A stretch of 64,000 nucleotides of DNA. Source: a bacterium. GTDB lineage: Bacteria; Bdellovibrionota; Bdellovibrionia; Bdellovibrionales; Bdellovibrionaceae. Positions 63,103 to 63,837 of the stretch are shown one piece after another. The notes under the pieces were generated by a model. The model did no database searches. It had not been told where the DNA came from and saw only the letters and a list, made by a program, of their open reading frames with translations. The position numbers were made by a program, and so were the translations under genes. Numbering within the stretch: position 1 is the stretch's first letter; each line of letters opens with the position of its first letter. Location: assembly GCA_019752925.1 (NCBI GenBank), contig JAIELP010000003.1, positions 124,001 to 188,000 of the forward strand. The letters are read 5' to 3'.

Positions 63103-63144
63103 GAGGAACTTAGTAACATGCTTTCAGCATTTGGACAAAAAAAA

Positions 63145-63167
63145 AGCGGTAGCTCATCGCTACCGCT
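63145..63167 (-). terminator. Rho-independent terminator between the microprotein unit and queA
   Basis: AGCGGTAGC (63145-63153) and GCTACCGCT (63159-63167) form a perfect nine-base stem with a five-base loop. In the minus-strand direction it is followed by nine Ts (complement of 63137-63145). It ends the transcript of the 35-residue gene at 63220-63327 before queA begins at 63102. Confidence 0.9.
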
Positions 63168-63219
63168 GAAGAAGATCTAGAGGGGAACCACCAAAACCCT
63201 AAAGATACTTCTTTAGAAA

Positions 63220-63327
63220 CTACTTACTTTTGACCTTTACTCTTTCAGAAATCGTGAGCCAGAGGGAGAAGGCCACAACACCAGAGTAAAGAGCACAAAA
63301 TACAAACACATAATAAAGCTCACCCAT
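63220..63327 (-). CDS. 35-residue membrane microprotein with its own leader and terminator
   Basis: The ATG at 63327 has a strong AAGGAG site six bases upstream (AAAAGGAGTTGTT then ATG). The product opens with MGELYYVFVFCALYSGVV; hydrophobic residues continue to WLTI and the end is charged and basic, SERVKVKSK. It is one membrane helix with a short basic cytoplasmic tail, the layout of many small membrane regulators. It is followed 52 bases later by a strong terminator and preceded by a ~150-base folded leader. No known family is recognised; a subunit of a membrane complex is possible. Confidence 0.72.
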   Translation of the reverse strand: MGELYYVFVFCALYSGVVAFSLWLTISERVKVKSK

Positions 63328-63328
63328 A

Positions 63329-63476
63329 ACAACTCCTTTTGTACCTACCTAAATCATCCTTGAGTTAGGTTTACGGGGGTGAAGTTGTGAGATAACCATC
63401 CTAGTCATCTACTACTTCTTGCTTACCGAGCGTCCTTGCTCTTGTAAGTAAGACGACCAACCCCCATGTTGGGGTT
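63329..63476 (-). promoter_or_regulatory. Structured 5' leader that can hide the microprotein's ribosome site
   Basis: Read on the minus strand, this stretch contains successive hairpins: AACCCC/GGGGTT (63476-63459), CTTACTTAC/GTAAGCAAG with an inner GAGC/GCTC (63452-63418), GATGAC/GTTATC (63409-63391) and ACCTAA/TTAGGT (63370-63347). ACAACTTC (63388-63381) is complementary over eight bases, with one G-U pair, to GGAGTTGT (63336-63329), which contains the core of the ribosome site, enclosing the last hairpin. This looks like a translational control leader: riboswitch, thermosensor or protein-bound. No known riboswitch class is recognised. Confidence 0.55.
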
Positions 63477-63503
63477 AAGAAATCTTTTAAAATTGCACGA
63501 ATT

Positions 63504-63530
63504 GTTAACATAAGCTCAACTTATGTTAAC
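63504..63530. promoter_or_regulatory. Long perfect inverted repeat, candidate operator
   Basis: GTTAACATAAG (63504-63514) and CTTATGTTAAC (63520-63530) are perfect inverted copies around a five-base centre. It lies upstream of the minus-strand microprotein leader and upstream of the plus-strand tRNA genes. No T run follows on either strand, so a transcription-factor site is more likely than a terminator. The cognate regulator is unknown. Confidence 0.45.
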
Positions 63531-63752: not shown

Positions 63753-63837
63753 GCGCGGATGGTGGAATTGGTAGACACGCAGGTCTCAGAAGCCTGTGCC
63801 CAAAAGCTTGAGGGTTCAAGTCCCTCTTCGCGCACCA
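63753..63837 (+). tRNA. tRNA-Leu (CAG anticodon)
   Basis: An 85-base class II tRNA with the same acceptor stem as its neighbour, anticodon loop CTCAGAA giving CAG, a long variable arm and an encoded CCA end. The first 16 bases equal those of the first gene, and the D arm differs by one inserted T, suggesting an old tandem duplication. It lies 52 bases downstream of the first and is probably co-transcribed. Confidence 0.95.

Follow-up and report, generated by a model that had tools for sequence, protein, structure and literature searches.

On its minus strand, the window (the whole stretch of 64,000 nucleotides that was analysed) carries a small RNA gene that is predicted to bind and sequester CsrA and that, in most species, would also serve as the CsrA-repressed mRNA of a membrane microprotein. 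From sequence comparison, we give this reading a probability of roughly 0.68. The unit runs from TTAACC and GTCTTA through three leader hairpins, a Shine-Dalgarno sequence (SD), a 35-codon ORF and a long hairpin to a terminator, and it is composed as follows:

63473..63478, minus strand: TTAACC, probable -35 box of an alternative-sigma (ECF-like) promoter, from conservation and spacing
63449..63454, minus strand: GTCTTA, probable -10 box, from its spacing
63476-63328, minus strand: leader, hairpin-rich
63428..63441, minus strand: hairpin H1, GAGC[AAGGAC]GCUC, a CANGGANG hexaloop with covariation, candidate CsrA-type site 1
63390..63410, minus strand: hairpin H2, AGAUGACU[AGGAU]GGUUAUCU, pair probability 0.96-0.98, candidate CsrA-type site 2
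63348..63369, minus strand: hairpin H3, CCUAACUCAAGGAUGAUUUAGG, present in the MFE fold, candidate CsrA-type site 3
63329..63342, minus strand: SD hairpin, ACAA[AAGGAG]UUGU, over the ribosome site and weak in the window, candidate CsrA-type site 4
63220..63327, minus strand: ORF, MGELYYVFVFCALYSGVVAFSLWLTISERVKVKSK, 35 aa, with SD AAAGGAG; predicted single-helix membrane microprotein with a basic C-terminal tail
63169..63213, minus strand: 3' hairpin with conserved loop UUUUGGUGGUUC, between ORF and terminator; missed by the initial annotation
63137..63167, minus strand: intrinsic terminator, AGCGGTAGC-GATGA-GCTACCGCT and a T run, with a perfect 9-bp stem and a 5-nt loop
63617-63700 and 63753-63837, plus strand: tRNA-Leu (gag) and tRNA-Leu (cag), upstream of the unit and divergent
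63102, minus strand: start of queA, directly downstream of the unit

The initial annotation had described a self-contained unit of leader, 35-codon ORF and perfect terminator. This description holds, on the minus strand, and the unit is conserved across the order. Its nine-base terminator is indeed perfect from 63167 to 63137, and the terminator stem shows compensatory changes across 49 members. The DNA of the unit has matches through much of the window's genus, and in the relatives that we extracted the RNA likewise sits between tRNA-Leu and queA, in many cases together with this small ORF. R1, a covariance model spanning the 3' hairpin and terminator, found matches at E<=0.1 in 55 of the 66 family genomes, representing 15 of 20 genera and including Bdellovibrio genomes. 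At the level of the order, weak R1 matches were rejected as homologues since most are chance terminators, and the order-wide claim therefore rests on synteny and on a second covariance model, R2, of the 5' module. R2 matched members of families f4, f6, f7 and f10 of the order at E<=0.01, and it had no match at E<=0.001 in about 228 genomes of the phylum outside the order; R2 was built partly from sequences within the order, so that the matches there arise partly by construction, whereas the absence outside does not. In several of these families, UAACC, GUC and GGA hairpins lie upstream of queA and beside tRNA-Leu. Several families of the order keep the tRNA-Leu(gag) gene as a neighbour of the RNA. 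Three genomes (G010, G024 and G061) have two copies of the RNA each.

Two of the genomes are, we presume, those of B. bacteriovorus HD100 (G060) and of B. exovorus JSS (G002), the latter in the window's own genus. In HD100 the RNA lies on the plus strand at about 2,159,834-2,160,190, a locus that is not among the attack-phase sRNAs tabulated in PMC3627812. An Rfam scan of the whole window returned two tRNAs as its sole matches, with no family over the unit and no Csr/Rsm family match, and for this reason the unit is not filed as a member of CsrB or RsmY. 6S RNA was excluded as its identity because 6S RNA is located elsewhere in the genome. We also rejected queA as the regulated gene: the terminator stands in between, other genes intervene in some relatives (L005, L008 and L009), and queA was not found beside the RNA in HD100.

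Across species, hairpin number, stem sequence and spacing vary, and the GGA in the loop is constant. In 39 non-redundant RNAs we counted 118 hairpin-loop GGAs compared with 33.9 expected from dinucleotide shuffles, and GGA was the top loop-located trinucleotide (53%, the median being 18%). Among the 105 GGA hairpins there are 48 distinct inner stems, and their consensus CA(A/C)GGA(U)G corresponds to the high-affinity site of CsrA/RsmA. Strict CANGGANG hexaloops, 51 in total, are spread over 33 of the 39 RNAs. The arms of a hairpin paired over 5.5 bp on average with each other and over 3.3 bp when swapped between species, a contrast that is somewhat inflated by preselection of the species' own hairpins at >=4 bp. 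The initial annotation had asked for covariance analysis of the leader in relatives, and here the stems do covary. H1 had 28 compensatory cells compared with 5.8 in shuffles (0/500), with 91.9% of cells paired, and shifting the partner in a sliding control abolished the signal. For H2, relatives have homologous GGA hairpins with other stems, and the stems of H3 are longer in relatives (for example GCUUAAGCCACGGAUGGCUUGAGC). The RNA thus has multiple loop GGAs of the CANGGANG or A(N)GGA type on covarying stems, as would be expected of a sequestering RNA, and CANGGANG apical hexaloops are high-affinity targets of CsrA/RsmE (PMC4894983).

The fourth hairpin lies over the ribosome site. Its pair probability in the window is 0.25-0.34, and relatives close it with different stems, for example AUUUGAAA aaGGAg UUUCAAAU and CUCGAA aGGAg UUCGAG. 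In many ORF-bearing members the SD itself is the loop of a short GGA hairpin with species-specific stems. A GGA site on the SD with a further site upstream, as in CsrA-repressed mRNAs, is therefore present, weakly in the window itself.

Few dinucleotide shuffles fold as well as the leader does (z -2.76, with 3 of 200 shuffles equally good), and its description as hairpin-rich in the initial annotation stands. The first of the hairpins described there, AACCCC..GGGGUU, may belong to promoter DNA and not to the RNA. This pairing was seen in part of the window's genus and is absent from Bdellovibrio; it may be the promoter spacer. UAACC is invariant in 37 aligned members, and GTC(U/A)(U/A)A is conserved 17-19 nt past it, so that the distance to GTCTTA is near-constant. 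The TTAACC/GTCTTA block is probably an ECF-type promoter, and with GTCTTA as the -10 box, its spacing would place the probable transcript start at about 63441-63447, just ahead of H1. Between the unit and tRNA-Leu(gag), at 63504-63530, lies a perfect 11-bp inverted repeat, GTTAACATAAG-TTGAG-CTTATGTTAAC, which looks like an operator; none is present at the same place in L003.

The pattern UUAACC-N17-20-(G/A)UCUUA also occurs in leaders of unrelated genes, found as weak R2 matches, and there a GGA hairpin that covers the SD or start codon comes next. The exact pattern is weakly enriched in the window's genome, with 12 occurrences compared with 8 for a reversed control, some of them before genes. 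In Bdellovibrio and in G010, leaders of small secreted proteins (L158, L159, L160, L162 and L164) have UUAACC..UCUUA and then a GGA hairpin that covers the SD or start, which suggests a CsrA-controlled regulon behind one promoter type. In L166, L167 and L168, the start codon of a LuxR-type regulator lies in the loop of GAGC[AAGGAU]GCUC behind the promoter-like block, making this gene a candidate CsrA target.

The small ORF is present in 37 of 48 homologous RNAs and encodes 28-50 aa with one helix and the core FC.fYSGVV..LW.T. Nonsynonymous change is well below synonymous change: in the window's genus pN was 0.29 and pS 0.71, with pN<pS in 66/66 pairs, and in Bdellovibrio pN was 0.27 and pS 0.70, with pN<pS in all 132 pairs of both genera together. 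These values argue for clear purifying selection, and the one-helix protein with a basic tail that the initial annotation had proposed is thus a conserved product. The hydrophobic stretch and basic tail suggest an N-out/C-in topology. Four members of the microprotein family gave nothing at E<=1 in Pfam and NCBIfam. In other families of the order, different small hydrophobic ORFs lie in the RNA (L097, L128, L139, L133 and L135), and ahead of some of these comes another short ORF with many charged residues. In L059 (G070), an extra stretch at about positions 100-190 of the RNA separates the usual SD from the ORF, and a second SD precedes the start codon.

If the microprotein were the only product, the GGA hairpins would serve CsrA repression in cis without titration in trans. 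We consider this unlikely, even though several results speak for it: the selection on the ORF, the SD inside a GGA hairpin loop in many members, and the single GGA hairpin that covers the SD or start in the leaders of small secreted proteins and of the LuxR-type regulator. Against it stands that the ORF is absent from 11 of the 48 homologues, in at least six genera, and that the GGA hairpins nevertheless persist in these RNAs, as do the UUUGGUGGUU-type 3' hairpin and the terminator (L014 and L091 in g12; L054 in g3; L057, L063, L069 and L070 in g5; L064 and L065 in g8; L089 in g15; L082 in Bdellovibrio, G061). By this comparison the RNA is the constant element and more than a peptide leader, and it is chiefly on this constancy that the case for a function in trans is built. 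In addition, three upstream sites exceed the need of cis-repression. L138 (g4) appears to lack the ORF in like manner. The ORF-less L082 is 185 nt long and carries AGAGAGCAUGGAUGCUCUCU and GACCGCAAGGAUGCGGUC; it and a copy with the ORF, L157, lie about 7.5 kb apart in the same genome. Four points weigh against CsrA sequestration: an RNA with 3-4 sites could titrate CsrA only if it were abundant; the HD100 locus is missing from the table of attack-phase sRNAs; most members have the conserved ORF, and in those the sites could be accounted for by CsrA repression in cis and nothing more; and L014 has a single GGA hairpin under the strict rule of the loop count. The 3' end offers another reading, a base-pairing or dual-function sRNA with the loop UUUUGGUGGUUC as its seed and CsrA in the role of chaperone or stabiliser. 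The precedent is SR1, a dual-function RNA that CsrA assists (PMC8501984). The loop UUUUGGUGGUUC is near-invariant on a variable stem, no other stretch of the RNA is as well conserved, and it lies just ahead of the terminator. The variable stem is out of register in the MAFFT alignment and arm-swap controls were used for the 3' domain; on average the arms gave -15.8 kcal/mol with their own partners and -10.0 when swapped, consistent with a covarying stem. The loop is constrained within the family only, however, and in other families the 3' ends differ while the GGA hairpins persist, which makes base pairing as the main function improbable.

The initial annotation had favoured a riboswitch-like system acting through an anti-ribosome-site arm, which could be read as a metabolite riboswitch or an RNA thermometer. 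The leader is structured (z -2.8), and the eight-base pairing of 63388-63381 (ACAACUUC) with GGAGUUGU, complementary to the SD, is literally present. Its predicted probability is about 0.02, an equally long anti-SD pairing occurs in 74 of 200 shuffled leaders, and the pairing is not conserved; the arm is instead predicted to close hairpin 2 by pairing with GAAGU, which lies upstream (0.46-0.85). The anti-SD pairing is thus at chance level and predicted to be unused. Hairpin numbers differ from species to species, which speaks against a fixed ligand pocket, and no conserved aptamer core was found upstream of an expression platform, the GGA loops being the sole invariant core. With no Rfam family matching either, the unit is probably not a riboswitch, and we regard control by ligand or temperature through this arm as very improbable. 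The broader claim of an undescribed conserved regulatory RNA with a peptide fared better, as neither Rfam nor Pfam or NCBIfam has a matching family.

A cognate CsrA is encoded in the same genome, as would be expected for a sequestering RNA. We found csrA in 60 of 60 relatives tested and fliW likewise in 60 of 60. In the window's genome, a CsrA ORF of 76 aa and a FliW match lie about 0.4 kb apart, and this CsrA is intact: it matches solved CsrAs, among them 5dmb, and keeps the MLVLTRK start and the IHREEVY segment, which we take to be the RNA-binding segments. CsrA sponge RNAs are known mainly from Gammaproteobacteria, which to our knowledge lack FliW. A 2015 study found BarA-UvrY, which is characteristic of Gammaproteobacteria, and FliW to be strongly anti-correlated, with few if any species having both (PMC4682653). 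As of 2020, joint control of CsrA by FliW and sRNAs was undetermined in any species (PMC7652899).

Our preferred model, sequestration of CsrA combined with repression in cis, starts from an RNA that points away from tRNA-Leu, ends at its own terminator and displays CANGGANG-type loop GGAs on covarying stems, where they are predicted to be exposed, in genomes with cognate csrA and fliW genes. Its 3-4 GGA hairpins would bind CsrA dimers. If produced in large amounts, perhaps from an ECF-type promoter, the RNA would titrate CsrA and thereby derepress CsrA targets, as with CsrB/RsmY. In most species the RNA would double as an mRNA on which CsrA, bound to the SD hairpin, blocks translation of the microprotein, which would not be made until CsrA is titrated or FliW holds it. 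The conserved loop of the 3' hairpin may stabilise the RNA or be a second binding site.

More tentatively, and at somewhat less than even odds, we propose that predatory, FliW-bearing bacteria have, throughout the order, a dual-function CsrA sponge whose own SD is a CsrA site, so that synthesis of the microprotein would report or reinforce CsrA titration, possibly in the predatory life cycle and together with FliW and the other GGA-hairpin leaders behind the same promoter-like block. The RNA would then be a candidate CsrA layer in that life cycle, and its product belongs to an uncharacterised microprotein family that is conserved in predators. Since csrA and fliW are present in every relative tested and the sponge-like RNA in most family genomes, including HD100, in which mutants can be made, the question of joint control by FliW and an sRNA is directly testable.

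In its several A(N)GGA-loop hairpins, intergenic position, intrinsic terminator and occasional two copies per genome, the unit resembles CsrB/CsrC and RsmX/Y/Z, and the layout of ORF-less members, for example L082, comes very close to that of RsmY-type RNAs. It differs from them in having no sequence or Rfam match, in its FliW-bearing hosts, and in that most members encode a protein and carry the conserved 3' UUUUGGUGGUUC hairpin; E. coli CsrB has 22 GGA sequences (PMC7652899), whereas the unit has 3-4 sites. The flaA mRNA of Campylobacter jejuni, a FliW/CsrA organism, is likewise dual-function with GGA hexaloops in its leader, being repressed by CsrA and also able to titrate it (PMC4894983); flaA encodes flagellin and has two sites, in contrast to the 35-50 aa membrane protein, 3-4 sites and ORF-less relatives of the unit. 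SR1 of Bacillus subtilis is also a small dual-function RNA with a small ORF and a CsrA link in a CsrA/FliW organism (PMC8501984), but it base-pairs with CsrA as chaperone, its peptide SR1P, which is not a membrane protein, acts on GapA, and we found no homology to the unit. In the same bacterial group, Bdellovibrio merRNA has been proposed as a sponge RNA (PMC3627812); it carries a c-di-GMP riboswitch and no ORF, at 1,073,741-1,074,185 in HD100 and so at a locus other than that of the unit. We found no paper on a CsrA-antagonist RNA in Bdellovibrio in the open-licence literature. Taken together, CsrA sponges as a kind and the C. jejuni flaA mRNA as a dual-function titrator are already known, and the unit differs from them in its lineage, in occurring alongside FliW, in being coupled to a membrane microprotein and in having repeatedly no ORF.
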